Positions 49,567 to 62,540 of a stretch of DNA of 64,000 nt are shown piece by piece. Both the position numbers and the translations under genes were made by a program. How positions within the stretch are numbered: the first letter of the stretch is position 1; every line of letters begins with the position of its first letter. The DNA lies in the IMG/VR virus record IMGVR_UViG_3300046810_000170, positions 1 to 64,000 of that record, one strand, 5' to 3'. The notes under the pieces are model-generated. The model did no database searches, was not told the origin of the DNA, and saw only the letters and a list, made by a program, of their open reading frames with translations. Origin of the DNA: a virus.

Positions 49567-49828
49567 GCGCCTCTACACCGCAGAGGGCCAGGTCATCACC
49601 GCGATCCACGATCCGGAGGTGAACAAGGTCCACTTCGCGGACTGGAGCCGGATGTGCAACGGCACAATCGACGGACCACTCCTCGGCCGCTTCAACACTC
49701 AGCGCGAGTTCGCTGAATTCGTGATGCGGAAGTACGACCGCAATCAGTATCAGAACACTCGGGAAGCCTACGAGATGCTGATGATGAACCGCCGGCCTGA
49801 CACCGAACCTGTGGTGATCCAGCTCTAG
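49544..49828 (+). CDS. Protein of unknown function
   Basis: 94 residues. KLTFNTKRLYTAEGQVITAIHDPEVNKVHFADWSR forms a beta-rich start; helix REFAEFVMRKYDRNQYQNTREAYEML follows. Overlaps the previous gene by 23 nt and the convergent zinc-ribbon gene by 4 nt. Confidence 0.65.
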   Translation: MKLTFNTKRLYTAEGQVITAIHDPEVNKVHFADWSRMCNGTIDGPLLGRFNTQREFAEFVMRKYDRNQYQNTREAYEMLMMNRRPDTEPVVIQL

Positions 49829-50112
49829 CGAGGCAGCTGACCCAGGATCCACTTGTTCCCCTCGCGATTGCCACAGCCAATGCACCGCAATCGCGAGGTG
49901 AGTGATCCGAGGTAAGCCCCCTGCCCCCACTTTTTGGCCAGCTCCCATCTCAAGAGCCACGCCTCACGCTCGCACTTCGGGCAGTAACCGCCCAGTGCAT
50001 GCCACTCCGGAATATCGTCAAACGTCGTGTGAACTGGGTCCATCAATGGCCCCAGGTAAAGGATCTCGCCTGCCTTTGGGCGGATCAGATCTACGCCTCG
50101 ACGATGTTTCAT
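49825..50112 (-). CDS. Zinc-ribbon protein of rhizobial type, on the opposite strand
   Basis: 95 residues from ATG 50112. GYCPKCEREAWLLRWELAKKWGQGAYLGSLTSRLRCIGCGNREGNKWILGQLPR gives CxxC...CxxC; I recall nearly this phrase in many alphaproteobacterial genomes. One of only two minus-strand genes in the right third, so probably acquired and separately regulated. The longer reading to 50232 would overlap the divergent gene at 50149 and has no ribosome-binding site. Confidence 0.75.
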   Translation of the reverse strand: MKHRRGVDLIRPKAGEILYLGPLMDPVHTTFDDIPEWHALGGYCPKCEREAWLLRWELAKKWGQGAYLGSLTSRLRCIGCGNREGNKWILGQLPR

Positions 50113-50148
50113 CGTTCTTATTTCGTTCACGCTAACGGAAGAGTCAAT

Positions 50149-50328
50149 ATGTTCGAACTCTCGGACTTCAAACGCGGAGACCGCATCCGCATCCACCCTG
50201 CATCCGATTGGTTCATGCGAGGCGAGACCCATGCCCGCGTGACCGTCCGCAAGTACCTCACCGTCAAAGGCGAGCGCAGCGACAAATCATTCAAGCTGCA
50301 CGTCGACCACGTTCTGGAGATCAAATGA
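50149..50328 (+). CDS. Small KOW/SH3-like barrel protein
   Basis: 59 residues, ATG 50149 with GGAAGAG. FELSDFKRGDRIRIHPASDWFMRGETHARVTVRKYL fits a small barrel of the kind seen in rhizobial hypothetical proteins; nucleic-acid binding is possible. Divergent from the zinc-ribbon gene, with a 36-nt gap that must hold control sites. Confidence 0.65.
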   Translation: MFELSDFKRGDRIRIHPASDWFMRGETHARVTVRKYLTVKGERSDKSFKLHVDHVLEIK

Positions 50329-50801
50329 CCAGCTGGAAACTCGTTCCCCTCGAGCCCACACTCGACATGGCGAAGGCCGCAATCGACTTGGATCCCAAGT
50401 CGGATCTGGACGCCAAGTATCGAGCAATGGTCCAGGCTGCTCCGAACCCGCCTCCCCTGCAGGGGATGCCGCCGACCCAAGATCGACGGCCTTATGATGA
50501 AGAGACCTACCCAGGGTACCTGGATGGCAATCGGGATTGGGCAGGATACAACGACGAGGCGGTTACCTGGCTGGCAGACAACCACGCTCAAATCCGAGCC
50601 AGCTTCCAGCTGATCGAGCAGATGGCCGGCGCCCTCAACTTCATCCTCGCGTTCTACGAACCACAGAACTACCTCGACACCAACGCTTGGACACAAGCCG
50701 AGGCTGGTGGTCGTCGAGCCCTCAAGGCTGCGAAGGACGCTGGCTATTTCGGCGGGAACGCTTCTCAGGCCGCTCCTGAATGTACTCCTCACGAACCATG
50801 A
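50325..50801 (+). CDS. Phage protein of the WKLVPLEPT type
   Basis: 158 residues. The N-terminal TSWKLVPLEPTLDMAKAAID...KYRAMVQAAPNPP is a motif repeated in many phage hypothetical proteins (about 40 residues). The rest is unique (WLADNHAQIRASFQLIEQMAGALNFILAFYEPQ). Its 3' end overlaps the minus-strand gene 50722-51045 by 80 nt. Confidence 0.65.
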   Translation: MTSWKLVPLEPTLDMAKAAIDLDPKSDLDAKYRAMVQAAPNPPPLQGMPPTQDRRPYDEETYPGYLDGNRDWAGYNDEAVTWLADNHAQIRASFQLIEQMAGALNFILAFYEPQNYLDTNAWTQAEAGGRRALKAAKDAGYFGGNASQAAPECTPHEP

Positions 50802-51045
50802 GCATCTCCGCAGCATTGGCTGCGGCGACGAACGCGGCTCTAGCCTGCTCTGGATCTCGGACCCCTTCCATAGCCTCCAGACACATCGTCTGTGCCCTTA
50901 TCCACTCCTTGCCGCGGCAATCATCAGGCCAGCGGTAGAGCAAGCTGTAGGCCAAATCCTCCAGCGTGGAATGCCGGCGCATACTGATGCCCCGGCGCTT
51001 TTCGATGCAAACCAGCACCTCTCGAACGGACAGTCTCTCGAACAT
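50722..51045 (-). CDS. DUF982-like protein
   Basis: 107 residues from ATG 51045 (AGAGGTGG in front). REVLVCIEKRRGISMRRHSTLEDLAYSLLYRWPDDCRGKEWIRAQTMCLEAMEGVRDPEQARAAFVAAANAAEML carries the WP...G..W..A...CL.A..G....AR.AF..AA frame of DUF982, a family concentrated in rhizobia. Function unknown. The antisense overlap with gene 50325 could make the two mutually exclusive. Confidence 0.7.
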   Translation of the reverse strand: MFERLSVREVLVCIEKRRGISMRRHSTLEDLAYSLLYRWPDDCRGKEWIRAQTMCLEAMEGVRDPEQARAAFVAAANAAEMLMVREEYIQERPEKRSRRNSQRPSQP

Positions 51046-51109
51046 TAGCCACCTCTGAAACGAATCAGTGGTGACCATGCGAGGCAATGTCAAGAAAAAA
51101 GGAAAGCTC

Positions 51110-51205
51110 ATGGATGAGCACCCTGACGACCTCCCCTACCCCAATGACCTCGACGAGTTCGACGAGGTCGACATCAACGAAGTTCTCCGGAGCCTGAACT
51201 CATGA
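51110..51205 (+). CDS. 31-residue acidic peptide
   Basis: ATG 51110 preceded by AAAAAGGAA; stop overlaps the next ATG (ATGA). DEHPDDLPYPNDLDEFDEVD then INEVLRSLNS: eleven acidic residues in the first twenty. Could mimic DNA or simply be a leader peptide. An in-frame upstream ATG (51077) would add 11 basic residues. Confidence 0.45.
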   Translation: MDEHPDDLPYPNDLDEFDEVDINEVLRSLNS

Positions 51206-51531
51206 ACACACCTCTCGAAGTCCTCACCACCGGCCGCGAACTGCTCGCGGATCCGAAGAACTGGACGCAGCGAACCCTTGCCCGCAACAAGGCAGGCGAA
51301 TCTGTCGAGCATCCCTGGGATCCAAAGGCCACGTGCTTCTGCTCGATCGGCGCGGTTCACAAGGTGCTGGGTCGGTACCAACTCGACCTGAAGTTCGAGG
51401 TCAAAAGACTTCTGGACCGTGTCGCAGGCGGATGGATGGTGAGTTTCAACGATAAGCACACTCACGCCGAAGTTCTCGAGGCTTGGGACAAGGCGATCGA
51501 GCTGGCCAAATCCGATGCACGTCACCAGTGA
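51202..51531 (+). CDS. DUF6197-like paralogue 6
   Basis: 109 residues, 2 kb from the other five. GRELLADPKNWTQRTLA, ATCFCSIGAVHKV, FNDKHTHAEVLEAWDKAIELAKS. The C-terminus is diverged (DKAIELA) and the embedded ribosome-binding site is lost. Confidence 0.73.
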   Translation: MNTPLEVLTTGRELLADPKNWTQRTLARNKAGESVEHPWDPKATCFCSIGAVHKVLGRYQLDLKFEVKRLLDRVAGGWMVSFNDKHTHAEVLEAWDKAIELAKSDARHQ

Positions 51532-51838
51532 TGGCTCCGCGTATGGCAAGATAAATCCCGGTCTCCTTGCCGAGACGCACAAGCAACAGAGCCTCTTCAA
51601 CACTGAGATGCTCAAGTATCGGGTCCGCGACAGCCGACCGCAGATTGCGATCAGCTTCCACACCAAGACCAACATGCCGGCCGTGTTCCTTGCCGCCGGC
51701 ACGTACCCCGGCCTCGCGAGCGTCGAGGTTCACTCCGCATCCTTCGTCACCGTCTACGTCCCGTACCGATCGGAAGACGACGTCAAGACCATGCGAGCTC
51801 ACTTCCGCGAGCTCTGGCAGATGACTACCACTCTCTAA
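51515..51838 (+). CDS. Protein of unknown function
   Basis: 107 residues from ATG 51515, inside the end of paralogue 6 (17-nt overlap). SRPQIAISFHTKTNMPAVFLAAGTYPGLASVEVHSASFVTVYVPYRSEDDVKTMRAHFRELW is an alpha/beta domain. Unrecognised. Confidence 0.6.
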   Translation: MHVTSDGSAYGKINPGLLAETHKQQSLFNTEMLKYRVRDSRPQIAISFHTKTNMPAVFLAAGTYPGLASVEVHSASFVTVYVPYRSEDDVKTMRAHFRELWQMTTTL

Positions 51839-51851
51839 AGGCGAAATCGTT

Positions 51852-53378
51852 ATGATTGCTTCTCCTGCTGTGAAACCAGCGGGCGGCTTTGTGCTGCCTC
51901 CAGATACCGAACGTTGGGACGACCTCGTCTCCGTGAGCATGCCTCATGGGGAGCTACTGTCCGACGCGGCCTTCGGAATTGAGACCCGATATCGATCGGT
52001 CATCATGTTGACCACGGATGGCGAACTGGAGCTCCAGGGCACGACCTACGTCGGTCTCAAGGAAGTGTCGTCGCTGAACAGCGACTTCTGCCAGAAGATT
52101 CACGTGCTCCGTCCGCCAAAGGACGGAGGCCTGCAGTTCCATGAGGAAGAAGTCGCCACGACGTTCGAGGGGAACCCGTGGCTCCGGCACCACTGGTTCC
52201 GCGAGAACTTCCTCCGCTGGGTCGAGCTCCTGCCACGGCCGAGCGAGACGGTGCCAGGTGCGGTCGCCTACTTCCAGAACCTGGATAAGCGGGCACGCAA
52301 CATCCGCACCCCAATCAAGCCGGGACGCTTTCTCAAGAAATTCTTCGGGGACATTCTTTCCGAAACTGAGATCCATGAGCTGGCCCACGAGTGGGGCAAC
52401 TGGACTGATCTCAAGACGCTGAGGATCACCCAGGACGCCGACGAGATCGAGCAGATCTACAAGGCTCGCCACTTCGGCTCCTGCATGTGGTTCTCGGACG
52501 ACAGCTATGACGGCCCGTGCCACCCTGCCCGTGTCTACGCTGGACCAGACCTGGCCGTCGCTTACATCGGCTCGATCGAGCAGCCCCTCGCCCGTTCCGT
52601 TGTATGGCCCGAGAAGAAGTTTCACACCTCGATCTATGGTGATGAGTCTCGCATGGAAGCGGCGCTCCAGGCTGCTGGCTATCGTGAGCCACTGAGCTCC
52701 AGCTGGCGTGGAGCCAGGATCCAAAAGATCGAGGCGAAGGACGACCGGTTCGTCCTCCCCTACTTCGATTTCTGTGATGGCGTCGACGACTACGGTGATC
52801 ACTTCCGCATCGGGAGCGACATCTGCCACGACGGCACAACCGGTCTCAGCGAGGAAATCGAGCGTAGGCGGTGTGACGACTGCAACGCTCGGATAGATGA
52901 GGACGAGGACTACTACATCTCGTACAGCGAAACGCGGGTCTGCGAGCATTGCTACTCAAGGGGTTACTTCTTCTGCGAAGGTTCGCAAGAGGATTACCCT
53001 GACCATCGCTTGGCGAAAACCGAGACAGACGAAAACTACTCACTGGATCACGTCGAGTACAACAGCGACTGGTTCAAGTGCGAGGGCACTAACACCTGGC
53101 ACAAGAAGGCTGAGACCGAATACGTCGTGGACATCAACGAGGACCACTATACTACAGAGTACGCCGCAGAGCACGGCTACTTCTGTGAGTATAGCGAAGA
53201 ATGGTTCGTCAACGAAGACGAAGACCAGCAAGTAAAACTCGACAATCACACATCGGTAAACATGAAATCCTTCCACAACCGGGAGGACTTCGAGGAATAC
53301 CTGCGTGACATCGGGGCCTGCGTCAAAACCCCGCCGGACCCGAACCAACTCGAACTCCCAATTCAGGAAGCCGCATAA
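51852..53378 (+). CDS. Large acidic cysteine-rich protein of unknown function
   Basis: 508 residues. The N-terminal 330 residues are a folded domain of unknown type (KPGRFLKKFFGDILSETEIHELAHEWGNW, FGSCMWFSDDSYDGPCHPARVYAGPD). The C-terminal 170 carry paired cysteines: CDDC, CEHC, then C/Y-rich acidic segments (FFCEGSQEDYPDHRL, WFKCEGTNTWHKK, YFCEYSEEWFVNEDED), suggesting three or more zinc ribbons. Largest accessory gene here; coupled to the next gene by a 1-nt overlap. Nothing known. Confidence 0.7.
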   Translation: MIASPAVKPAGGFVLPPDTERWDDLVSVSMPHGELLSDAAFGIETRYRSVIMLTTDGELELQGTTYVGLKEVSSLNSDFCQKIHVLRPPKDGGLQFHEEEVATTFEGNPWLRHHWFRENFLRWVELLPRPSETVPGAVAYFQNLDKRARNIRTPIKPGRFLKKFFGDILSETEIHELAHEWGNWTDLKTLRITQDADEIEQIYKARHFGSCMWFSDDSYDGPCHPARVYAGPDLAVAYIGSIEQPLARSVVWPEKKFHTSIYGDESRMEAALQAAGYREPLSSSWRGARIQKIEAKDDRFVLPYFDFCDGVDDYGDHFRIGSDICHDGTTGLSEEIERRRCDDCNARIDEDEDYYISYSETRVCEHCYSRGYFFCEGSQEDYPDHRLAKTETDENYSLDHVEYNSDWFKCEGTNTWHKKAETEYVVDINEDHYTTEYAAEHGYFCEYSEEWFVNEDEDQQVKLDNHTSVNMKSFHNREDFEEYLRDIGACVKTPPDPNQLELPIQEAA

Positions 53379-54265
53379 TGATGGATACCCTCATCGACAT
53401 GTTCTCGTATCAGCGCCCCTCCGGTGGCGTGACCGAGAAACTCTTCGTCAACAAGTACCTGAAGGGGTTCAGAAAGGACGCCTATGGCAACATGGTGCGG
53501 ACGATCGGTGACAAGCCGCGGATCCTGTTCTCCAGCCACATGGACACGGTCCACCGCTTCGATGGCAGGAACCAGTCGCTAAAGTTCGACGGCCAGTTCC
53601 TGACGCAGACCGACGCAAACTGCCTCGGCGCCGACGACACTGCCGGCGTCTTCCTGATGCTCGAGATGGCCAAGGCTGGGATCGAGGGCGTCTACGTTAT
53701 CCACTTCGGTGAGGAGATGGGATGCCAGGGCTCGCGAGCGTTGGCCAAGGACAACCCGGAGTTCTTCGAACACATCGACATTGCGATCGCCTTCGACCGC
53801 ATGGGTTATGACGACATCATCACCCACCAGTGCGGCCGGCGGACAGCCTCCGATGCCTTCGCTCTGTCCCTCGCGGCCGAGCTCGGCGGTAGCTACCAGC
53901 CCTCCGACGAAGGTGTCTACACGGACACCAACGAGTACCCCCACCTGGTCGCGGAATGCACCAACGTGTCGGTCGGCTACTTCCACCAGCACCACAAGGA
54001 CGAGAAGCAGGACATCCCGTTCCTGCTGGCGCTCCGCGAAGCTCTGCTCCAGGTGCGGTGGGAGAACCTGGTCGTCGAGCGGGATCCGAAGGAAGAAGTC
54101 GACCACCGCTACGCCCCTCGTCGTCAACGCGAACCGGCTGATCTCAGCATGAACGACCTCGTCTATGAGTACCCCGAGCTCGCAGCTGAACTGCTGCTCG
54201 CCATGGGCATGACGGCGGACGACTTCCTCATCTCGGTCGAGGAGCAATACGGGGTGGCGGCTTAG
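53378..54265 (+). CDS. M20/M28/M42-type zinc metallopeptidase-like protein
   Basis: 295 residues. Metal-ligand order of di-zinc aminopeptidases: H54-x-D56 (SSHMDTV), D86 or D87 (LGADDTAGVFLMLEM), E112-E113 (HFGEEMGCQGS), D140 (IAFDRMG) and a late His cluster (GYFHQHHKD). The dimerisation lid domain is reduced, so it is shorter than the usual 350-400 residues. Acts in the cytoplasm on a peptide or amide substrate; why a phage carries it is unknown. Confidence 0.8.
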   Translation: MMDTLIDMFSYQRPSGGVTEKLFVNKYLKGFRKDAYGNMVRTIGDKPRILFSSHMDTVHRFDGRNQSLKFDGQFLTQTDANCLGADDTAGVFLMLEMAKAGIEGVYVIHFGEEMGCQGSRALAKDNPEFFEHIDIAIAFDRMGYDDIITHQCGRRTASDAFALSLAAELGGSYQPSDEGVYTDTNEYPHLVAECTNVSVGYFHQHHKDEKQDIPFLLALREALLQVRWENLVVERDPKEEVDHRYAPRRQREPADLSMNDLVYEYPELAAELLLAMGMTADDFLISVEEQYGVAA

Positions 54266-54308
54266 CCTCCTCCCTCCCTTTCCACGAAATACTTAGGAGT
54301 TACTGTCA

Positions 54309-54707
54309 GTGAATATTCAGAACCTGACAATACTTGCGAACCATCTCGACCACGTTCCACAGCCAGCCTTCGCCATGGACTCGTTTGCCCGCGACGAACA
54401 CGGCGATCGGCTCGACCCCCCGGCTCACGAGTGTGCGACGGTCGCGTGCGCCGTTGGCCATGGACCAGGAGCAGGCCTGCCTGTCGGTGATGCCCAGTCT
54501 TGGGGAGAATATGCGATCGACACCTTTGGACTGCTGCCTGGGAGCCCCGAGTTCTCCTGGTGCTTCAGCGGCGGCTGGTACTGGAGAGACGACACACCCG
54601 CCGGCGCCGCCAAGCGGATCCGCCATCTTATCTACCACGGGCTCCCGGCCGACGCTGACGACCAGCTGGAAGGTCATGCCCCGTACATTTTCGGAGCAGT
54701 GCATTGA
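54309..54707 (+). CDS. Protein of unknown function with CGTxAC-like motif
   Basis: 132 residues from GTG 54309. ILANHLDHVPQPAFAMDSFA, HECATVACAVGHGPGAGLPV, SWGEYAIDTFGL, WCFSGGWYWRDDTPAGAAKRIRHLIYHGLP. I recall this plan from other phage proteins with no function. In layout (conserved Cys, then small residues, then helix at the end) it recalls the DUF6197 copies but is not a clear homologue. Confidence 0.65.
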   Translation: MNIQNLTILANHLDHVPQPAFAMDSFARDEHGDRLDPPAHECATVACAVGHGPGAGLPVGDAQSWGEYAIDTFGLLPGSPEFSWCFSGGWYWRDDTPAGAAKRIRHLIYHGLPADADDQLEGHAPYIFGAVH

Positions 54708-54901
54708 AATACATCATCCTGGCCCGCGACGGCTGCGATTACTGCGAGATGGCCAAGGCCATGCTCCCCGACGCGATCGTCCTCTCGGATTTCACGGCGC
54801 AGCTGATCGTCAAGGAAGGTGGCTTCGGCACTTTTCCCCAGATCTTCCACAATGGCAAACACATTGGAGGCTACACTGAGCTCCTCAGCTACCGACCCTA
54901 A
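54704..54901 (+). CDS. Glutaredoxin-like protein
   Basis: 65 residues, TTG start 54704 in an overlap with the previous stop (TTGA). Redox motif C11-D-Y-C14, cis-proline loop TFPQIF and GGYTEL, all glutaredoxin marks; at 65 residues it is minimal. Likely electron donor for the phage ribonucleotide reductase, although 48 kb away. Confidence 0.87.
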   Translation: MKYIILARDGCDYCEMAKAMLPDAIVLSDFTAQLIVKEGGFGTFPQIFHNGKHIGGYTELLSYRP

Positions 54902-55109
54902 GACCTATCGCCTCGGCTCAAATCACGCCGTCTATGCTCCAGGTATCGTGAACTGGGCAATGAGCGGCTACTGGAACAAGCCCGACCGCAAGACGCTCGA
55001 GAAAATCATCTCGGACGGCTGGAAGATCCCAGTCGAAGCGGCTCGGGCTTTGCTCAGCAAGGCCGTGAAGTACGAGCTCGACGGCGAGACCGTGGTGTTC
55101 ACGGTATGA
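54852..55109 (+). CDS. Small protein of unknown function
   Basis: 85 residues from ATG 54852; a CTG at 54876 after GGAGG is an alternative that would reduce the 50-nt overlap with the glutaredoxin gene. Core YRLGSNHAVYAPGIVNWAMSGYWNKPDRKTLEKIISDGWKIPVEAARALLS. Unrecognised. Confidence 0.6.
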   Translation: MANTLEATLSSSATDPKTYRLGSNHAVYAPGIVNWAMSGYWNKPDRKTLEKIISDGWKIPVEAARALLSKAVKYELDGETVVFTV

Positions 55110-55321
55110 ACCCAGAAGAGAAACAGTGGTTCTCTCGGCTGCGTCGAATACTTCGGAACATGCCCACAACGGTCGAGATTCAAGTTCACCAGAATTTCAT
55201 CCAAATGAATCGCGCGGGTGCCCGCTCAGAAACTTTCGAGCTGATCGGTCATGTCGACAATGTCGAAAGCCTGGATGAGTTCAGCACGGAAAGGGTCTAC
55301 CCTTGCAGCGAGAGTATATGA
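55106..55321 (+). CDS. Small protein of unknown function
   Basis: 71 residues, ATGA overlap with the preceding gene. NPEEKQWFSRLRRILRNMPTTVEIQVHQNFIQMNRAG... reads as one helix plus strands. Its end touches the first partition-type repeats. Confidence 0.6.
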   Translation: MNPEEKQWFSRLRRILRNMPTTVEIQVHQNFIQMNRAGARSETFELIGHVDNVESLDEFSTERVYPCSESI

Positions 55322-55348
55322 CGCATGAGCGTTAACGCACGTCAACGC
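55319..55348. repeat. Partition-type repeat cluster 1
   Basis: TGACGCA (55319), perfect palindrome GCGTTAACGC (55329-55338) and ACGTCAACGC (55339-55348). Same half-sites as clusters 2-4. Confidence 0.6.
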
Positions 55349-55480
55349 GGACTGACCGCCGGACATCGCGGTCAGCCCTACTCCTCGAACCCCTACCCTC
55401 GCGGAACGGTGGAGCACCTGGCTTGGAGCCAGGGGCGCAACGATGCGAGGGTTACAAGCATCATGATGCGTCAACGTTGA
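55325..55480 (+). CDS. Ribosome-modulation-factor/CrpP-like small protein
   Basis: 51 residues from ATG 55325. RQRGLTAGHRGQPYSSNPYP then RGTVEHLAWSQGRNDA matches the GYxAGxxGxxxxxNPYPxGTxxxxAWxxGW frame of RMF/CrpP-type proteins carried by many phages. RMF dimerises ribosomes; the phage forms are uncharacterised. Both ends of the gene run into TGACGC/GCGTCA repeats, so codons and repeats coincide. Confidence 0.65.
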   Translation: MSVNARQRGLTAGHRGQPYSSNPYPRGTVEHLAWSQGRNDARVTSIMMRQR

Positions 55481-55484
55481 CGCA
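55467..55484. repeat. Partition-type repeat cluster 2: perfect 18-bp palindrome
   Basis: TGCGTCAACGTTGACGCA, the most complete form of the repeat, overlapping the stop of the RMF-like gene and ending 12 nt before the next start. Confidence 0.72.
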
Positions 55485-55496
55485 GAAGGAGAGTTA

Positions 55497-55709
55497 GTGA
55501 AAATCAAGAGTATCATCGGTCCTGAACCCGTTCATAAGCCCGAGTATCCTACCGCGTGGGTCATCGACTACGACGGCGTCACCGAAATCCGCGAGGTCAC
55601 CGAGAACCTCGGCACCTACGGCATCACTTGGTATGAAGTCTACGCTAGCGACAAGCTGATCGCGAAGATGAACGCCAGCTACGTGGCCGAAGTTCGGTAC
55701 GCTACATAA
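55497..55709 (+). CDS. Small protein between partition repeats
   Basis: 70 residues from GTG 55497 with AAGGAGAG. KIKSIIGPEPVHKPEYPTAWVIDYDGVTEIREVTENLGTYGITWYEVYASDK: beta-rich. Not recognised. It is bracketed by repeat clusters 2 and 3, so its expression is likely controlled by whatever binds them. Confidence 0.62.
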   Translation: MKIKSIIGPEPVHKPEYPTAWVIDYDGVTEIREVTENLGTYGITWYEVYASDKLIAKMNASYVAEVRYAT

Positions 55710-55808
55710 TGCGTCAACGTCAACGTACTCTGACGCAGACGCTTCATGAACCATTATGATGCACGTTAACGTCTCGTAAAGCGTTCCGCCGCATCATGAC
55801 GCTACAAC
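55710..55808. repeat. Partition-type repeat cluster 3, upstream of parA
   Basis: TGCGTCAACG (55710), CAACGTACTCTGACGCA (55721-55737), ACGTTAACGT palindrome (55763-55772), TGACGC (55797-55802). No gene fits in this 119-nt gap; it carries the parA promoter/operator and possibly the centromere. Confidence 0.7.
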
Positions 55809-55828
55809 GTTCATCAGGAAGGACGCAC

Positions 55829-56503
55829 ATGCCTGTTATCGCCGTAGCGAACCCCAAGGGTGGGGCAGGGAAGTCGACCACGACCCTCGTTCTCGCCACC
55901 ACACTGGCCGCTCAGGGCGCCACCACCATCATCCTCGACTGTGATCCGAACCAACCAATCACCGGCTGGCGTAGTGGATCCTCGAAGAACACCGTGATCG
56001 TCGACGGCGACGTGAACGAAAGCAACATCACTTCCAAGCTCGACGAGTACCGGAAGAAATTCCAGTTCGTCTTCGTCGATCTTGAAGGTGTAGCCAGCCG
56101 CCTGATGTCCCGAGCACTCGCACGAGCCCAGATGGTGGTTATCCCCATCCAGGCCAGCCCCACCGACGCCGAGCTCGCCGCCAAGGCCATCCGCCTGATC
56201 CAGGAAGAGGAGCAGGCATTTGAGAAGCGGATCCCGTACCAGATCCTGTTCACTCGAACCTCGCCGGTCATTGCCACCAAGCTTGAGAAAGCGATCCTGG
56301 CGCAGCTGAGGGGAGGGGAGGTGCCTTCCTTCAACAATCACTTGAACGAGCGTGCCGCCTACAAGTCGATGTTCTTCCACCAGCTCGATCTAAACGAGCT
56401 TGACGAGGGAGAGGTCAACGGCGTGCCCCAGGCCCGCGAGAACGCCCTGCGCCTCGCTGAGGAGCTGGTCAACCTCGTGGTCCAGAAGAAAGAAGCAGCA
56501 TGA
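55829..56503 (+). CDS. parA: ParA-family partition ATPase
   Basis: 224 residues from ATG 55829 (AGGAAGG in front). Deviant Walker A KGGAGKST (K10, K15), Walker A' IILDCDPNQPITGW, and Walker B FVFVDLEG. Short, lacking an N-terminal HTH, so it is of the type Ib / VirC1-like class; repression of the operon is then left to the partner. It would position phage DNA so both daughter cells keep it. Overlaps the partner by 4 nt (ATGA). Confidence 0.88.
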   Translation: MPVIAVANPKGGAGKSTTTLVLATTLAAQGATTIILDCDPNQPITGWRSGSSKNTVIVDGDVNESNITSKLDEYRKKFQFVFVDLEGVASRLMSRALARAQMVVIPIQASPTDAELAAKAIRLIQEEEQAFEKRIPYQILFTRTSPVIATKLEKAILAQLRGGEVPSFNNHLNERAAYKSMFFHQLDLNELDEGEVNGVPQARENALRLAEELVNLVVQKKEAA

Positions 56504-56787
56504 CCGGGAAGAACTTGGGCTTTAGTGCCCTCAGCGCAATCAAGCCGGATGTCGACGACGAACCAAAAGTTCCCGATCGCAAGATCGACGAAGTGGCTGA
56601 GAAGCACGGTTTTGTTTCACGCGAGCCGATTCAGAAGGTGGTCCGCCGCAAGGAAGCCGAACCTTCCGCCAACCTCAACATCCGTCCGCCGATCTCCACC
56701 TACAACCGGTTTGTGACCTGGGCGATGGAGCAGCGGCTCTCGTACCCCGAGGCTCTCAAGGAGCTCATGGACCGAGCGAACATTTAA
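56500..56787 (+). CDS. Small partition partner (centromere-binding type)
   Basis: 95 residues. DRKIDEVAEKHGFVSREPIQK then basic VVRRKEAEP and a C-terminal PSANLNIRPPISTYNRFVTWAMEQRLSYPEALKELMDRA, which reads as a ribbon-helix-helix (strand NLNIRP, two helices). I recall similar proteins next to ParA on rhizobial plasmids, named stability/partitioning determinant. Likely binds the TGCGTCAACG repeats and stimulates ParA. Confidence 0.75.
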   Translation: MTGKNLGFSALSAIKPDVDDEPKVPDRKIDEVAEKHGFVSREPIQKVVRRKEAEPSANLNIRPPISTYNRFVTWAMEQRLSYPEALKELMDRANI

Positions 56788-56810
56788 CGCATCTGCGTCA
56801 ACGCACGTCA
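56784..56810. repeat. Partition-type repeat cluster 4, downstream of the par operon
   Basis: TTAACGCA (56784-56791) and TGCGTCAACGCACGTCA (56794-56810), directly after the partner stop and before a terminator. Repeats thus lie on both sides of the two-gene locus. Confidence 0.68.
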
Positions 56811-56818
56811 TTCAATCA

Positions 56819-56845
56819 AGCCCTGGCCACCGCCGGGGCTTTTTC
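56819..56845 (+). terminator. Terminator of the par operon, followed at once by a ribosome-binding site
   Basis: AGCCCTGGC (56819-56827) pairs with GCCGGGGCT (56832-56840, one T-G pair), then TTTT-C-TTTT and GGAG. Nearly identical to 58411-58436. Confidence 0.88.
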
Positions 56846-56858
56846 TTTTGGAGATACC

Positions 56859-57620
56859 ATGTACGACCCCACACCCCTTGTCGAACAAGGGGCACTCTTT
56901 GTCATCAACCATAGTGGTGGCAAGGACAGCCAAGCGATGACCGCGGTGCTCCGCGCCATGATCCCCGATGAACAGCTGTTGGTGATCCACGCCAGCCTCG
57001 GGGAGGTGGAGTGGCCAGGTGTGATCGACCACATCAAGGCGACGACCGAGGGCCTGCCGCTGATCGTCTGCAAGAACGAAAACAAGACGTTCTTGGAGAT
57101 GGTCGAGCGTCGAGGCATGTTCCCGTCGCCGCAGCAGCGGCAATGCACGAGCGACCTGAAGCGGGATCCGATCAACCGCGAGATCCGCCGCTACCTCCGC
57201 GAAAATCCACACTTCGGCGGTCACGTCGTCAACTGCATGGGGCTGCGAGCCGAAGAGAGCTCGAACCGTGCTAAGGCGACCCCGATCAAGCTCAGCCTGC
57301 GCCACAGCATCGCCGGCCGCACATGGTGGGATTGGCTCCCGATCCACAAGATGACGCTCGACGAAGTATGGGAGACGATCGAGGACGCCGGTCAGAAGCC
57401 GCACTTCGCTTACTCCCTCGGCATGACCCGTTTGTCCTGCATCTTCTGCATCATGGCCAGCGATGGTGACCTGACGATCGCCGCCAAGCACAACCCCCAA
57501 ATGTTCGCCCGCTACTCGGAGCTCGAGCAGCGCCTCGGCCGAACCATGATGATGCCTCGCAAGGGCGTCCCTCGAACCCTGGCCGAAATCACCGGCCTCA
57601 CTCCGGAGCTTGCAGCATGA
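56859..57620 (+). CDS. PAPS-reductase/DndC-family ATP pyrophosphatase-like protein
   Basis: 253 residues. P-loop SGGKDS (19-24), then HASLGEVEWPG, QCTSDLKRDPINREIRRYL (PAPS-reductase-like arginine-rich motif) and two cysteines in LSCIFCIMAS. The family adenylates or reduces sulfur donors; phage members are suspected of nucleic-acid modification or sulfur metabolism. No Dnd or cysteine-synthesis partner is seen. The start follows the terminator/ribosome-binding-site cassette. Confidence 0.85.
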   Translation: MYDPTPLVEQGALFVINHSGGKDSQAMTAVLRAMIPDEQLLVIHASLGEVEWPGVIDHIKATTEGLPLIVCKNENKTFLEMVERRGMFPSPQQRQCTSDLKRDPINREIRRYLRENPHFGGHVVNCMGLRAEESSNRAKATPIKLSLRHSIAGRTWWDWLPIHKMTLDEVWETIEDAGQKPHFAYSLGMTRLSCIFCIMASDGDLTIAAKHNPQMFARYSELEQRLGRTMMMPRKGVPRTLAEITGLTPELAA

Positions 57621-57895
57621 ATCTCTACTACCTCTGCGGTCGCGACGACAACGGCGAGGATTACACGCTCCACGTCCGCGCCCCGAACATGCACCAGGCT
57701 CACGGCATGTGGCTCGCCCACTGGTTCGAGGAGTGCCCTGAAGACGCGATCTACAGCGGCCAATTGGTCTCTGGAACGCCAGCTGCGAAGGCTGAAGACA
57801 AGCTCTTGGTCTACGAACTCATCTTCGATCCGAACGAGCTCGGGGTGATCGAGTGGGGCAGGGATGCTATCATCGTGGGGCATGTCGAACCATGA
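57617..57895 (+). CDS. Small protein of unknown function
   Basis: 92 residues, ATGA overlap with the PAPS-reductase-like gene. NLYYLCGRDDNGEDYTLHVRAPNMHQAHGMWLAHWFEECPEDAIYSG... resembles a compact alpha/beta domain of phage accessory proteins. Possibly works with its upstream neighbour. Confidence 0.6.
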   Translation: MNLYYLCGRDDNGEDYTLHVRAPNMHQAHGMWLAHWFEECPEDAIYSGQLVSGTPAAKAEDKLLVYELIFDPNELGVIEWGRDAIIVGHVEP

Positions 57896-58236
57896 CCAAC
57901 GTCTATTCGATCGACGTGAAAGTTTGGGCGACGGCTTACATCCGAGCGGCCACGCCGGAAGAGGCAGTCGAGAAGCTCCGCAAGCTCAGATATGAATGCC
58001 TGCAGATGCCAGTCGACGAGTTCGAAGTGGGCGAGGACCGTGTACCGGTCAGTGAACGCAGCTTCGACGATCCAGAGCTTCCGGAGCTGAGCCTAGCCAC
58101 AAATATGTCGGTGGACAGTGAGTACATCGACAGCGTGGCTCCGGATGAGCTAGAACTGTCACATGAGTCTTTGGGGGCCGAAGCAGACGCATCCTGCCAG
58201 GTGCATCAGGAGAATGGTTCTCCTGACTGGGCATAG
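57892..58236 (+). CDS. Small protein of unknown function
   Basis: 114 residues from ATG 57892 (ATGA overlap). NVYSIDVKVWATAYIRAATPEEAVEKLRKLR is a ferredoxin-like start common to phage proteins; the C-terminal half is acidic and loosely ordered (ELPELSLATNMSVDSEYIDS). Confidence 0.6.
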   Translation: MTNVYSIDVKVWATAYIRAATPEEAVEKLRKLRYECLQMPVDEFEVGEDRVPVSERSFDDPELPELSLATNMSVDSEYIDSVAPDELELSHESLGAEADASCQVHQENGSPDWA

Positions 58237-58299
58237 CCTGGTCCTCAAACTGGAGTTGAGCGATGTGGTTCTTACCCATCAACCTCACTCTTACGATAC

Positions 58300-58387
58300 G
58301 AAAAACCCGCACAGGCTGGCAGGCTGATGTGCGGGTCGTCTTCGTAATCTAAGAGCGGGGGGCAGGATTTCGGTCCTGTCCCTTGCT
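58300..58387 (-). ncRNA. Candidate small RNA with promoter and terminator
   Basis: On the minus strand: promoter (58393-58421), predicted start near 58386, stem GGGACAGGA/TCCTGCCCC region (arms 58359-58367 and 58374-58382, loop 6 nt, outer GAGC/GCTC), then ACCCGCAC/GTGCGGGT (58329-58336 and 58305-58312) followed by TTTTT. About 85 nt. No minus-strand gene lies downstream, so a free RNA is the simplest reading. The 58237-58451 gap has no protein gene. Confidence 0.55.
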
Positions 58388-58392
58388 CCAGC

Positions 58393-58421
58393 AATATAAT
58401 CAACGTTCACAGCCCTGGCAA
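58393..58421 (-). promoter_or_regulatory. Sigma70-like promoter of the candidate small RNA
   Basis: Minus strand TTGCCA (58421-58416), 17-nt spacer, TATATT (58398-58393). The -35 box lies inside the plus-strand terminator stem. Confidence 0.58.
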
Positions 58422-58436
58422 CCGCCGGGGCTTTTT
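58411..58436 (+). terminator. Terminator/ribosome-binding-site cassette, second copy
   Basis: AGCCCTGGC, AACC, GCCGGGGCT, TTTTT, then GTTTTGGAG and the ATG of the next gene. Copy of 56819-56845 with two or three changes. Confidence 0.85.
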
Positions 58437-58451
58437 GTTTTGGAGCCGAAA

Positions 58452-58988
58452 ATGGAACTAAACCAGGCAGCAATTGAAAAGGCAATCGTTGAAAGCGCGG
58501 TGGAGCGCCTTCTCGAAAATCGCGACTACACTCGCCAGATCGACGTCGAGTTCAAATCCCGCATCGACACTCTCTTCAAAGAACAGGCCGAAGTGCGGAT
58601 CCGTGCAGCAATCGACCAGGCGGTCGAAGATGGATTCGACCGTGAGTACCGGCGTGTCGATTCCTGGGGCCAACCACAGGGGGAGGCCACGACGATCCGG
58701 AAGCAGCTCGAAGACGCCGTCTCTGGTTACTGGGAGAAGAAGGTAGACAGTAACGGCAAGGAGACCAAAGACTCCTACAGTTCAGCCATGACCCGCGCTC
58801 AATACGTGATGCTCAAGGCTTGCGGTGAGGATTTCTCCAAACTTCTCAAAGCCGAAGCTGTCACAGTGACCGCCCACCTCAAGGATGGTCTCCGTGCTCA
58901 ACTCCGAGACTTCGTCGACAAGGCACTCAAGGACTTGTTCCATGTCAGGAGCCAGCAGGATCAGGCTGAAGGTCGGCATTATGGCTAA
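58452..58988 (+). CDS. Helical protein of unknown function
   Basis: 178 residues from ATG 58452 (TTTTGGAG in front). Almost entirely helical and charged (AAIEKAIVESAVERLLENRDYTRQIDVEFKSRIDTLFKEQAEVRIRAAIDQAV), with WGQPQGEATTIRKQLED in the middle. Related-looking proteins occur in other phages. Overlaps the alpha-CTD-like gene by 8 nt. Confidence 0.68.
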   Translation: MELNQAAIEKAIVESAVERLLENRDYTRQIDVEFKSRIDTLFKEQAEVRIRAAIDQAVEDGFDREYRRVDSWGQPQGEATTIRKQLEDAVSGYWEKKVDSNGKETKDSYSSAMTRAQYVMLKACGEDFSKLLKAEAVTVTAHLKDGLRAQLRDFVDKALKDLFHVRSQQDQAEGRHYG

Positions 58989-59349
58989 CACCTTCATCGA
59001 CACGCTCGAATTGAGCGTTCGAGCCGGTAACTTGCTGCGGAACAATGGTATTTCGACCGCTGAGCAGTTCCTGACAATTACCTGGCCTCTCGTGAAGAGT
59101 TGGAAGGGTGGCGGACAGCGAACCTGGTTCGAAATTCTCGATCTGCAGAAGATGGTTCATCGCGAGATCAAACGCGAGGAACAGCAGCGGCGCCGGGAAA
59201 CACTACCGGGGAGGGCGCTCATTGCCCTCCGCGCCATTAACGAACTCCTTCCCGAGCTGACCGAGAAGGGTTGGTTCGTTCGCCAGGACAGCAGGAACGG
59301 AAAGTACCGACTGGGTCGGTACGTTGTGACGGAGGATCTCGATGGGTGA
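58981..59349 (+). CDS. RNA polymerase alpha C-terminal-domain-like protein
   Basis: 122 residues from ATG 58981. Residues 6-60 (FIDTLELSVRAGNLLRNNGI, STAEQFLTITWPLVKSWKGGGQ) follow the alpha-CTD frame LSVRxxNxLxxxxIxxxxxL with two helix-hairpin-helix turns. The C-terminal half is basic (REIKREEQQRRRE) and new. It could replace or compete with host alpha-CTD at promoters, redirecting transcription. No catalytic polymerase parts are present. Confidence 0.75.
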   Translation: MANTFIDTLELSVRAGNLLRNNGISTAEQFLTITWPLVKSWKGGGQRTWFEILDLQKMVHREIKREEQQRRRETLPGRALIALRAINELLPELTEKGWFVRQDSRNGKYRLGRYVVTEDLDG

Positions 59350-59629
59350 AATGGCCGACGAAATGATCGACCGGATGATCTTCGGCGTGGCCCATGACCA
59401 CCGCCGCAGCCGGCGACGACCGACCTATCAATCTGGAAGCGGCGACTTCATGTGGAGATCGGCCGAGGGCCTGATCAACATGTACGACATGACGCCCGAG
59501 CATCGCGCTAACGCGATCGAGGTCTGCCGACGCAAGGGCAATTCCGGAAAATTGAAACAGCTGGAGCAGGTCCAGCGAGAAATGAGAAAGGCACGACCCC
59601 AAGACTTCGCAGAAGACATTCCCATCTAG
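59342..59629 (+). CDS. Small basic protein of unknown function
   Basis: 95 residues; starts 8 nt inside the previous gene. GEMADEMIDRMIFGVAHDHRRSRRRPTYQSGSGDF then a helix EHRANAIEVCRRKGNSGKLKQLEQVQREMR. Last gene before a terminator. Confidence 0.62.
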   Translation: MGEMADEMIDRMIFGVAHDHRRSRRRPTYQSGSGDFMWRSAEGLINMYDMTPEHRANAIEVCRRKGNSGKLKQLEQVQREMRKARPQDFAEDIPI

Positions 59630-59654
59630 GCCCGCCCCGAGCGGGCTTTTTTTT
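59630..59654 (+). terminator. Intrinsic terminator
   Basis: GCCCGC, CCCGA, GCGGGC, then eight T. Confidence 0.92.
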
Positions 59655-59658
59655 GCCC

Positions 59659-59673
59659 GAGTTCTCAGAACTC
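59659..59673. promoter_or_regulatory. Operator-like palindrome, copy 4
   Basis: GAGTTCTCAGAACTC, identical to 43579-43593 and again just past a terminator. A GTCCCC/GGGGAC hairpin (59690-59707) follows before the start of gene 59745. Confidence 0.65.
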
Positions 59674-59744
59674 CCGCCGATCACGGATTGTCCCCCAACA
59701 TGGGGACCAACTACCAAAATCACGCAACTTCATCAGGAGATCCC

Positions 59745-60608
59745 ATGAAGAAATTTTTCCTCGGCGCCATAGCGGCGCTGCTCATTTCTGTGCCTGCTCA
59801 TGCCGCAACCATCCGCCTCTGCACTGGCGCCGCGGATCAACCCTACGCCGCAGCTGGCGAACTCATCAAGGACGAAGCCAAGGGGAACGGCCTGGATGTC
59901 GAAGTCGTTAAAGATACTGGTGGTAGCTGGGGCAACGTCCAGCTCTCTCTCCAAGGCAAGTGCGATGCAATTATCGCCCAGCCCGATGCTCTTGCTTACC
60001 TCAAGCGAACCGAGCCGGCCAACGCCGCCAAGTTCCTGCCGATCGCTGACCTTCACCGTGAATATGCAACCGCAGTCTGCGGAAAAAATTCTGGCATTAC
60101 TGACATCGGGGGTCTCGAAAACGACGCGACCAAGTATTCGATCGCTCTTGGCGAGCGTGGCTCGGGCGCCTGGTTGATTTGGCAGAACTTCATCTCGGAG
60201 GACAGCGACTACTCTGGCGTCCGCCCCACTGCCGAAAGTGGTGATGATGCACTCTCGGCCGTCGCCAACGACCAGACGACGTGCGCACTGGTACCGGCTG
60301 CTCTCATCAACTCCGTAATGCGGTCGGCCGACGAGCTTTACAGCGACAACTTGGTCCTCGTCGGTGTCAACGACAAGGACTTCGACGACGCTCCGGATAG
60401 TCAGGGCAAGCCGCTCTACACCTACAGCAAGATCCCCTCGGGCACCTACCCGAAGCTGCAGGGCTGGTTCAGCGGCAAGTCGACCATCTCTTGGCTCGCC
60501 AAGGTCTACGTCAACAAGGACACGCTATCTGACGCCAATGTCCGCAAGACACTGATCCGGTCGGTCATGAAGGCTCGCCAGAACGTCGTCTCCAACTTCG
60601 GCTCCTAA
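59745..60608 (+). CDS. Periplasmic solute-binding protein-like (TAXI/TRAP type), phage-borne
   Basis: 287 residues from ATG 59745 (AGGAGA). Signal peptide KKFFLGAIAALLISVPAHAA. Mature part ATIRLCTGAADQPYAAAGELIKDEAKGNGLDVEVVKDTGGS follows the start of TAXI-type binding proteins, with DAIIAQPDALAYL, LGERGSGAWLIWQNF and TCALVPAALINSVM as the second lobe. No transporter genes are nearby. It may scavenge, block a receptor or change the periplasm. Own operator-like site and hairpin leader. Confidence 0.78.
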   Translation: MKKFFLGAIAALLISVPAHAATIRLCTGAADQPYAAAGELIKDEAKGNGLDVEVVKDTGGSWGNVQLSLQGKCDAIIAQPDALAYLKRTEPANAAKFLPIADLHREYATAVCGKNSGITDIGGLENDATKYSIALGERGSGAWLIWQNFISEDSDYSGVRPTAESGDDALSAVANDQTTCALVPAALINSVMRSADELYSDNLVLVGVNDKDFDDAPDSQGKPLYTYSKIPSGTYPKLQGWFSGKSTISWLAKVYVNKDTLSDANVRKTLIRSVMKARQNVVSNFGS

Positions 60609-60624
60609 CAACCGTCTCTGCGAT

Positions 60625-60646
60625 GGGCTCCCCCGTGGGGGAGCCC
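60625..60646 (+). terminator. GGGCTCCCC/GGGGAGCCC hairpin
   Basis: Perfect 9-bp stem, loop CGTG, 16 nt after the binding-protein stop. No T-run; same family as 44695-44714. Confidence 0.5.
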
Positions 60647-60679
60647 CTCATGGAGCCCGTTGGCTCAGAAGGGTAACTC

Positions 60680-60796
60680 ATGATTTTCGCAATCATCAAC
60701 AATCTGCCTGAGCTGGCGCTCGGGCTGTGCTGGACCAGCATGGTCTGGATCCTCCGTGGCAAGTGGGATCGACGCAAGTCGTTCCTAAAGTTCTAA
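60680..60796 (+). CDS. 38-residue protein with membrane-like segment
   Basis: ATG 60680 with GAAGGG. IFAIINNLPELALGLCWTSM then VWILRGKWDRRKSFLKF: hydrophobic N-terminal half, strongly basic end, as in small inner-membrane peptides. Unknown. Confidence 0.5.
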   Translation: MIFAIINNLPELALGLCWTSMVWILRGKWDRRKSFLKF

Positions 60797-60822
60797 AACC
60801 CAACATCATCAAGGAGATAAAT

Positions 60823-61272
60823 ATGTTTGGTATTCTGAAGAAAGTCGCTGGCGCTGCAACCAAGGAAGTCAAGGCTGAGTACGGCCAGAACAAGGACTTC
60901 CTCGAAGCGGTTCTCGCTGCATCTGCCCTCGTCGCCGCAGCTGATGGCGAAATCGAAGAGTCCGAGCGCCGTAAGGTGATCTCGATCATCTCGAACCACC
61001 CGACACTGTCCAAGCTCTACTCGACGCAGGTCATCGAGTCGACGGCCGAGACCATGTTCAAGCGTGCGAAGGACGCCTCCGGTCGCCAGATGCTGGCCCG
61101 CGAGCTCGACGACGTGAAGGGCAAGACGGATGGCGCCCAGATGGCAGAAGACGCCTACCTGATCGCTCTCGACATCGCCAACTCGGACGGCGAACAGGAA
61201 CCGGCGGAAGCCGATATCCTGAAGAAGCTCGCTGCCCGTCTCGGCGTCGACGCTGCCAAGTTCGAGTTCTGA
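60823..61272 (+). CDS. TerB-like protein
   Basis: 149 residues, AAGGAGA before ATG 60823. Two EF-like acidic loops of the TerB/DjlA family: AADGEIEESERRKVISII and ANSDGEQEPAEADILKKLAARL. TerB proteins bind metal and belong to tellurite/stress systems; phage carriers are known, the function is not. Single-gene unit with its own terminator. Confidence 0.82.
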   Translation: MFGILKKVAGAATKEVKAEYGQNKDFLEAVLAASALVAAADGEIEESERRKVISIISNHPTLSKLYSTQVIESTAETMFKRAKDASGRQMLARELDDVKGKTDGAQMAEDAYLIALDIANSDGEQEPAEADILKKLAARLGVDAAKFEF

Positions 61273-61299
61273 TCCTCCCAAAATCAGAATGACCGCAGA

Positions 61300-61330
61300 G
61301 GCCACCCCATCCGGGTGGCCTTTTTCTTTT
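61300..61330 (+). terminator. Terminator after the terB-like gene
   Basis: GGCCACCC, CATCC, GGGTGGCC, then TTTTTCTTTT, followed by GAGGAG of the next gene, again the terminator/ribosome-binding-site layout. Confidence 0.92.
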
Positions 61331-61344
61331 AGCGAGGAGCTCCC

Positions 61345-62148
61345 ATGAAAATCACCGTCTGGAATGTCATCAGCTACAATGATTGGGTCGGCTTCACGAC
61401 CAACACGTTCACCAAGAAGTCCGAAGCGGAAGCCGAGTTTCGCAGCCGTGTAGAGAGCGATTGGGAGAACCACAAATCGGAACCATTCCCAGCCTCCGTC
61501 GATGAGGCTTACGCCGCGCTCCTCGAGCTCGACGACTACAAAGATCAGCACTCGCTCGAGGACGTCGAGCTGGACTTCACGTCTGCAAGGGTTTCCCGAC
61601 GAGAAATGTTCTCACCCCTCGAAATGGAGGCGGCGCTCTGCTCCTGGGAGTGGATGTTCGAGAACCCGAAACACAAGATCTTCCACGGCGTCTGGGAAGG
61701 CCTCGGCTACGCCGCTATGCGGATGTGCTCGCAGCAGGCCGGCACGATCGTGCTCGCCGTCCACGATCGGATGACTGAGCTCGATTACGAGTTCGTGGAG
61801 GCATACGACTGGGAGTTCGTCCCGGCGGTTCTCATTCGTCTCGACTGGAAGAAGCTCGCCATGGACAACCAATATGCCGGCGAGGCCTACCAGCCAGACA
61901 TCGACGCGATCTTCCAGGACATGCTCACGAGCGACCCTGATCGGTTCGAGCACAACGATCCTCGCACGACCTGGCTGAACCAGGCCCGCGCCGCTGCGAA
62001 GCGTCTCTGGGGCTATCCTGAGCTCCTGAACGAACACCCCGAACTTTTCGAGTCTGCATTCGAGGAAGGGCAGAAGGCTGCCGATTTCGTCGAAGAGCTC
62101 GGCAAGGATCTCAACCTCACCTCCGTCAAAGATTGGAACGGCCACTAA
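61345..62148 (+). CDS. Protein of unknown function
   Basis: 267 residues, GAGGAGC before ATG 61345. KITVWNVISYNDWVGFTTNTFTKKSEAEAEFRSRVESDW; the middle is helical; tryptophan-rich and acidic overall. No family recognised. It heads the last operon in the window with three small genes and RtcB. Confidence 0.68.
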   Translation: MKITVWNVISYNDWVGFTTNTFTKKSEAEAEFRSRVESDWENHKSEPFPASVDEAYAALLELDDYKDQHSLEDVELDFTSARVSRREMFSPLEMEAALCSWEWMFENPKHKIFHGVWEGLGYAAMRMCSQQAGTIVLAVHDRMTELDYEFVEAYDWEFVPAVLIRLDWKKLAMDNQYAGEAYQPDIDAIFQDMLTSDPDRFEHNDPRTTWLNQARAAAKRLWGYPELLNEHPELFESAFEEGQKAADFVEELGKDLNLTSVKDWNGH

Positions 62149-62540
62149 TGACCCAACTACAACTCGGCTTCGCCTCATTCCAGGATGGCACGTTCGAGCT
62201 GATCGTCAGTGATCAGAAAAATTATAAGGAAATCACGCTCAAGGGCTCGATGGAAGGCAACCCTTCGCTCGAGGAAATCGACGCGATCCTTCCTACCTGC
62301 GTCTTCGTAAACGCCGAAAGTCCGGAACTACCCAGCGGCTGGTGCCGGATGTTGCTCGAGGCGAATGCGAGCCTGACACGCGAGGATGGTTTCATCAACG
62401 ACGAAGCAGACGGCTACTTACTCGAGGCCGTCGATCAGATCGCGGATCCTGCCCAGGACGACGACTGCACGCTTTACCTCTTCACCCAGTCCCAGCTGCT
62501 CAAGCTGATGCGGACGATCACTCAGAAGGAGACAGCATGA
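62148..62540 (+). CDS. Protein of unknown function
   Basis: 130 residues; ATG shares a base with the previous stop (TAATG). TQLQLGFASFQDGTFELIVSDQKNYKEITLKGSMEGNPSLEEIDA; acidic alpha/beta. Coupled to both neighbours. Confidence 0.62.
   Translation: MTQLQLGFASFQDGTFELIVSDQKNYKEITLKGSMEGNPSLEEIDAILPTCVFVNAESPELPSGWCRMLLEANASLTREDGFINDEADGYLLEAVDQIADPAQDDDCTLYLFTQSQLLKLMRTITQKETA

Follow-up and report, generated by a model that had tools for sequence, protein, structure and literature searches.

A probable type Ib-like partition locus with a possibly dual-role partner protein in a putative phage-plasmid

Phages with a RedRock-type parABS lack an integrase and are kept as extrachromosomal prophages; their parA genes are homologous, whereas parB has diversified, likely to avoid incompatibility, and RedRock kin have two parS loci, parS-L and parS-R (PMC7157519). 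Par loci of type Ib layout have been described in other mycobacteriophages (PMC3585329). In the TP228 ParF/ParG/parH system, a small ParA is paired with a ribbon-helix-helix (RHH) partner that has an arginine-finger-like motif in its N-terminal tail, and ParG binds the centromere as well as an operator upstream of the genes (PMC7308502). In the delta/omega system of pSM19035, one RHH centromere protein segregates and also regulates several genes, and parS overlaps the copS, delta and omega promoters (PMC9499535). Papers are cited by PubMed Central (PMC) number, and all citations refer to the portions of these papers that were available. Here we describe a locus at 55319 to 56849 of a 64000-base stretch of viral DNA (hereafter, the window; bases 1-64000 of the 64058-b IMG/VR record IMGVR_UViG_3300046810_000170), which encodes a small ParA ATPase and a 95-aa partner among clustered palindromes. 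Based on gene order, site clustering, family conservation, covariation between sites and the partner's DNA-reading strand, and the circular or plasmid state of relatives, all of which were computed here, we consider it quite probable that this is an active, type Ib-like partition locus of a phage-plasmid, with the partner doubling as a regulator.

The ParA ATPase (55829 to 56503, plus strand) is of the small type, with 224 aa and a deviant Walker A motif (KGGAGKST) at its N-terminus, which leaves no space for an N-terminal DNA-binding domain such as a helix-turn-helix (HTH). Its start is corrected here from 55796 to the conserved ATG at 55829. Type Ia systems (P1 ParAB, F SopAB) combine a large ParA that has an N-terminal HTH with a large HTH ParB, whereas the window pairs its 224-aa ParA with a 95-aa predicted RHH partner. 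The system resembles a type Ib partition locus, and the structural features of that type that can be tested from sequence were all found. Pfam matched ParA to VirC1 (57.5 bits; cut-off 24), AAA_31 (55.7 bits), CbiA (47.6 bits) and also MipZ, and PHROG 164 ParA scored 106 bits. The closest PDB chains to a profile of this protein (A1) were ParF and a chain named ParA, at 99 bits each. These nearest solved relatives, the predicted RHH partner and the covariation described below all support the assignment to partition that had been proposed from the sequence alone.

Because VirC1 is the top Pfam match, and because some relatives lie on plasmids that carry traA, ParA and its partner might instead work like VirC1/VirC2, gathering DNA-processing proteins on a repeat site without segregating DNA. 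However, the NCBIfam VirC1 equivalog model gave 61.2 bits vs. a cut-off of 313, the same cassette occurs on phage genomes, and the open reading frames (ORFs) scanned in the window have phage structural and replication functions (no family search for conjugation genes was made). We consider a VirC1-like role very improbable.

The partner gene (56500 to 56787, plus strand) overlaps parA by 4 nt. With near-copies counted, a partner lies beside ParA in 102 of the 105 loci examined, a count that omits the four weakest (L021-L024) of 22 viral ParA loci; a script search found no partner in L105, L108 and L111. No Pfam model scored above its cut-off for the window partner or 10 other partners (RHH_10 reached 14.3 bits on the window partner vs. 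a cut-off of 27), nor did any NCBIfam model for five partners. AlphaFold predicted a low-confidence N-terminal tail and a helix at residues 26-35, followed by two C-terminal helices predicted with confidence (block pLDDT 94-97 over residues 61-95). Residues 55-95 aligned structurally to CopG (Z 4.1, 41 residues, root-mean-square deviation 1.4), with many other RHH matches; Foldseek alone gave E values of at least 1.7. Based on the many RHH rows and this second structural comparison, the partner is predicted to be an RHH protein, as the sequence-only reading had suspected, and NLNIRPP (residues 58-64) would be its DNA-reading strand. Preceding this fold, a GF.SRE motif (residues 37-42; GFVSRE, codons at 56608 to 56625, plus strand) is a candidate ParA-activating arginine motif, a role that we infer. 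Among 91 distinct partners, F38 was present in all 91, G37 in 88 and R41 in 84, and R49 was Arg or Lys in 89/91.

The small ParA, RHH partner and motif-bearing tail recall TP228, which differs in that parH consists of tetramer boxes with AT-rich spacers (PMC7308502); the window has an additional site after the partner gene. A PDB sequence search with the partner profile returned a single row, a CRISPR protein (E 0.13), and no ParG chain; in Foldseek, ParG appeared at rank 37 (E 7.9). The literature that we searched, with many subscription papers outside it, held no report of the partner family or of a relation between strand and site. We regard the family, this covariation, and the partner-type sites before unrelated small genes (see below) as new.

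The site unit is a 10-bp palindrome with the consensus RCGTYRACGY. The sequence-only reading had taken the 7-mer TGCGTCA as the half-site; although 6 of its 17 copies fall in 55319-56800, it is not enriched across the whole window (17 vs. 12.7 expected; 20/100 shuffles as high), and the palindrome is the better unit. The matrix used to score the window was derived from 26 related loci and excluded both the window itself and L003, its nearest relative; sites were called strong at a score >11. This analysis identified 12 strong sites in 64 kb, eight of them within 55329-56804 (<1.5 kb), starting at 55329, 55339, 55468, 55474, 55711, 55717, 55763 and 56795. Across 200 first-order simulated windows (mean 4.0 sites, largest 10), no 1530-b stretch contained more than two. 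The earlier observation is confirmed.

Upstream of parA, cluster A (55319 to 55348) comprises a TGACGCA half-site (55319-55325) and the palindromes GCGTTAACGC (55329-55338) and ACGTCAACGC (55339-55348), and cluster B (55467 to 55484) is the palindrome TGCGTCAACGTTGACGCA, in which two 10-bp sites overlap by 4 bp. Cluster C1 (55710 to 55737) contains overlapping sites at 55711-55726 and a half-site at 55731-55737, and site C2, ACGTTAACGT (55763 to 55772), is an alignment-conserved site 66 bp 5' of parA, where we presume a promoter. Cluster D, TAACGCATCTGCGTCAACGCACGTCA (56785 to 56810), begins at the partner stop codon. Directly 3' of it lies an intrinsic terminator-like hairpin with a T-run (56818 to 56849, plus strand; -18.3 kcal/mol, 1/200 shuffles equally stable), and this strong hairpin makes it improbable that cluster D serves the following gene as an operator. 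The overlap of repeats with coding ends that had been noted from the sequence extends to three ORFs (ending at 55321, 55480 and 56787), the stop codon of each forming the first three bases of a T[GA]ACGCA half-site.

A similar arrangement was found among related loci. We compared 28 loci with an NLN-type strand, including the window, each scored with a leave-one-out matrix; 8 of 36 such loci had been dropped for near-identical upstream DNA. Site density was 13.2/kb in the 200 bp before parA and 12.6/kb just after the partner, vs. 0.13/kb elsewhere, and at least one strong site was present within 200 bp upstream of parA in 26/28 loci and after the partner in 23/28. The partner stop is the TGA of a TGACGC half-site in 10/28 loci; the window instead has the TAA of TAACGCA at this position. 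In L003, another gene lies directly 3' of the partner, and a strong site starts 8 positions past the stop of that gene. A hairpin and T-run at -15 kcal/mol or better also occur in L004, L005, L009, L012, L036 and L047; no hairpin of such strength was found in the remaining loci, and comparable values are occasionally reached in random control stretches. Neighboring sites are spaced 6 or 10 bp apart in 54 of 111 cases. Of the 111 spacings, all up to 40 bp, 106 are even, with 45 even vs. 5 odd at 12 bp or more; shared ancestry inflates this count.

Repeat type differs by partner strand, with exceptions in every group. Partners with an NLN(I/M)RP strand mostly accompany GCGTYAACGC repeats, and those with L(A/S)MR accompany GCATGCA-like repeats; QIN(I/L)K and similar strands mostly occur with AGCTAYC-like repeats, QAFVRAP mostly with GATAGCA or GCAATCA, and S(V/I)KGP mostly with GCATGGC or GTACCAA. 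We tested this relation in 91 loci (3870 pairs with <80% ParA identity), taking the repeat before parA as the site and omitting identical ParA copies, loci without a partner and loci whose upstream DNA was too short. After controlling for ParA and helix identity, motif similarity increased with strand identity (partial r 0.376; 0/500 permutations as high); the value for the helices in the same test was 0.104 (4/500 permutations). Because the repeat before parA covaries with the DNA-reading strand, the partner very probably reads the repeats, and we regard this covariation as the best evidence that it would bind them. The set amounts to ~90 natural partner/site pairs in which a short RHH reading strand covaries with its presumed DNA site. 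In the ParA tree, an A-strand pair (L014/L016) is nested in the N-strand group (95/90 support), a topology that still allows a single origin.

From these data, we infer DNA binding, ATPase stimulation, segregation and repression in the following scheme. The small ParA ATPase would bind the nucleoid with ATP, and the 95-aa RHH partner would coat the 10-bp palindromes that lie 5' of parA and immediately 3' of the partner gene to form a partition complex; its N-terminal tail, with an invariant Phe and a nearly invariant Arg in GF.SRE, would stimulate ParA. The virus genome would be kept in lysogens as a low-copy circular plasmid without an integrase, with copies moved to both daughter cells. Since these sites also occur where the parA promoter is presumed to be and directly in front of the small upstream ORFs, the partner may also repress or tune parA, itself and those ORFs. 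Such a locus offers a plausible answer to how integrase-less siphoviruses of the window type persist in bacteria; if this is confirmed, sequence alone could reveal the incompatibility groups to which such phage-plasmids belong.

As functional precedents for this scheme, we would name RedRock parABS and pSM19035; P1 and N15, which the sequence-only reading had offered as models, appear to be looser ones. Going by their names, we take the parS-L and parS-R of RedRock to flank parAB. RedRock differs from the window in having 8-bp direct repeats, where the window has 10-bp palindromes, and a host of a different phylum (PMC7157519). The pSM19035 system differs in its 7-bp heptads and in that its extra regulated gene serves copy number, whereas the corresponding slot in the window holds small ORFs (PMC9499535).

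With sites before the small genes and in the presumed parA promoter region, the locus might be a purely regulatory module, in which the partner acts as a repressor of the small genes and of parA, and ParA has lost any role in segregation. We consider this highly unlikely: the ATP-binding motif of ParA and the GF.SRE motif of the partner are highly conserved among relatives, and cluster D in the window precedes a terminator rather than any obvious promoter.

Comparison with viruses of similar backbone bears on the regulatory part of the partition reading. Terminase identity to the window is 80% in G015, 83% in G002 and 78% in G003. G015 shares its flanks with the window (a peptidase at 54% identity and the counterparts of ORF 59688 at 73% and ORF 60727 at 81%), but its ParA and partner are only 46% and 37% identical to those of the window, and its sites are of the GCAATCA type; a different par type thus occupies the same slot. 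Upstream of parA, four backbones (the window, G002, G003 and G015) carry one or two small ORFs immediately preceded by partner-type sites, and those sites in G015 are of its own type. By sequence, these small ORFs form four groups, namely, a 70-aa ORF (window and G002), an RMF-like ORF (window), one in G003 and one in G015, and the groups show no significant similarity to one another. Although four backbones are few, they suggest that any gene in the slot comes under the control of the partner, and they lend indirect support to the sequence-only reading's proposal that the partner may control neighboring genes. It is possible, if rather doubtful, that the partner is both a segregation protein and the specificity factor of a small regulon, in which exchangeable small genes bear sites for their own partner and change together with the par cassette. 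If so, partition type, incompatibility and small-gene expression would form one swappable unit, and a few ribbon-strand residues would set the site.

The virus itself is an ~80-kb siphovirus of JWF/Seuss type, of which the record is a fragment. Genes in the window encode a central fibre J, a 1791-aa tape measure, portal, terminase, major head protein, ribonucleotide reductase and primase, and Caulobacter Seuss carries the same gene classes. The window terminase shares 40-46% identity with its counterparts in Seuss, JWF, 2-1, Lumi, KB12-38 and pMaq22A_3p; among seven named phages related to Achromobacter JWF and Seuss (genomes of 78-85 kb), terminase identity is 39-44%. In agreement with the earlier remark that no integrase is visible, neither the tyrosine integrase family PF00589 nor the resolvase family PF00239 was found in the window's record or in a near-identical 80.5-kb sibling. 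PF00589 was likewise found in none of 17 ParA-bearing records and, among the 13 members of the siphovirus set, was found only in KB12-38; PF00239 was found in 9/17 ParA-bearing records, G000-G003 and G015 not among them.

Several relatives point to a circular or plasmid state. The G002 contig (81,516 b) terminates in an exact direct repeat of 127 b and is apparently circular. G003 (80,450 b), which we take to be an isolate-genome contig based on the IMG isolate-style number in its name, starts and ends at the window equivalents of ~14.1 and 14.3 kb; it is circularly permuted, and because both ends fall inside the fibre gene, it has no chromosomal flank. Methylobacterium aquaticum MA-22A harbors pMaq22A_3p, a complete, circular plasmid of 85,702 b that carries terminase, tape measure, holin, primase and nrdJ genes and is collinear with the window (24 of the 25 longest translated matches in one order). 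The ParA-type gene of this plasmid (AAA_31 41.6 bits, CbiA 46.6) is 21% identical to the window ParA over 117 aa, and the next gene does not match the window partner family; the par cassette is unrelated. A long palindrome lies directly after the partner gene of this non-homologous cassette (51618-51660; L191 1618-1660). ParA was found in 6/6 records of the window's group and in pMaq22A_3p; five of the six had been picked for having ParA, and two are the same virus.

The window's own ParA family occurs on complete plasmids and on pAtCFBP5507b, a 46-kb circular plasmid with head and tail genes. Aurantimonas phage AmM-1 (ParA 61% identical) and pAtCFBP5507b (70%) share both the ParA and partner families and are phage genomes; they have tail-sheath genes and 46-48 kb, whereas the window belongs to an ~80-kb siphovirus. 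An intact AmM-1-related prophage has been reported as a 37-kb plasmid of A. pusense (PMC5081363). Two partition ORFs are likewise reported for a plasmid prophage of Ochrobactrum, and pLM21S1 has been described as a phage-plasmid of Sinorhizobium (among PMC5081363, PMC5492332 and PMC5537653). The available main text of a phage-plasmid typing paper makes no mention of Alphaproteobacteria, AmM-1, Methylobacterium or Agrobacterium (PMC12977533). ParA relatives suggest rhizobia as possible hosts of the window virus. No near match was found for window 45000-64000 in phage records or for the 12.7-kb L006 locus in plasmid records. The lack of a tyrosine integrase, the ParA family on plasmids and pAtCFBP5507b, the circularly permuted sibling and the collinear 85.7-kb plasmid, although its par cassette is unrelated, together support the proposal of a plasmid-like prophage.

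Alternatively, the locus might serve only lytic growth, spacing replicating genomes or capsids in a virus that forms no plasmid in lysogens. Backbone relatives have indeed been isolated by plaques or lysis, with lytic activity for TCUP2199 and clear plaques for Lumi, and lysogeny was left open (PMC9228384, PMC9959647). Those relatives, however, lack ParA, whereas the ParA-bearing ones include the apparent isolate-genome contig and the complete bacterial plasmid, and the same cassette occurs on plasmids whose listed genes are non-phage. We judge a lytic-only role very unlikely.

Several observations weigh against an active partition locus that maintains a phage-plasmid. A ParA-type gene was found in 0/7 named phages of this backbone, including Seuss (two Pfam models). 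JWF, one of these, is described as temperate and re-inducible by UV and is thought to integrate (PMC3899368; temperate also in PMC9228384 and PMC9959647); because it lacks ParA, lysogeny in this backbone needs no such locus. The window record is a 64-kb fragment in which two recombinase families were sought, so that another integration gene is possible, and the circularity of relatives is inferred from contigs. A consensus scan of the plus strand before parA found no promoter. The strand/site test removes shared ancestry incompletely, and its largest per-position contrasts occur at residues 57, 58 and 63, with smaller ones at 60 and 62, so that the deciding residues are not singled out. In two of the 28 NLN-type loci (L030 and L037), a strong site is lacking both before parA and after the partner. 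Outside this group, the excess of downstream sites is weak (34 vs. 20.6 expected in 59 loci); an own-motif copy lies within 100 bp after the partner in 18/59 loci, and five loci hold 20 of the 34 copies. Given this weak excess, and because the three plasmid loci with an NLNMRP strand (L026, L027 and L030) lack such a site altogether, we rejected the downstream site as a general trait.

The remaining genes named in the sequence-only reading were also confirmed. The RMF/CrpP-like ORF (55325 to 55480, plus strand; 51 aa) has its stop codon within a TGACGCA half-site, and cluster A extends across its start and the stop of the preceding ORF (55106-55321). It scored under both cut-offs examined, at 25.8 bits for Pfam RMF (27.9) and 26 bits for NCBIfam Rmf_like_phage (40). 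The 70-aa ORF (55497 to 55709, plus strand), which cluster B adjoins upstream, starts with GTG and has no family match in the scanned libraries. Besides the near-identical sibling, relatives with 46-52% identity occur in three further viral contigs; at 3001-3198 in L137 and L138, where identity is 46%, no ParA or partner match was found in 6 kb of each contig. On either side of the locus are a glutaredoxin-like gene (54704-54901) and a 3'-phosphoadenosine-5'-phosphosulfate (PAPS)-reductase-like gene (56859-57620), possibly redox or sulphur cargo.

The window record (base 64058) and the sibling G001 (L130, base 1) share the same terminal base and are 99.99% identical over the 11.9 kb compared; the shared end could be a physical genome end or a common assembly break. 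The palindrome GCGTYAACGTTRACGC was rejected as a marker of such loci: collection-wide, it occurs in 50 viral stretches, and only 3 of these have ParA or the partner (TBLASTN, DNA examined), a number that by our own rough estimate is near chance level in so large a collection. The tandem form of the site occurs in two stretches, the near-identical sibling and L189, a viral contig in which a strong tandem cluster of partner-type sites lies at ~5741-5760 and no ParA was found in the 11 kb examined. Finally, in pAtCFBP5507b (L029), a pair of partner-type sites at ~43360-43380 lies upstream of a resolvase gene, which suggests a link with multimer resolution.

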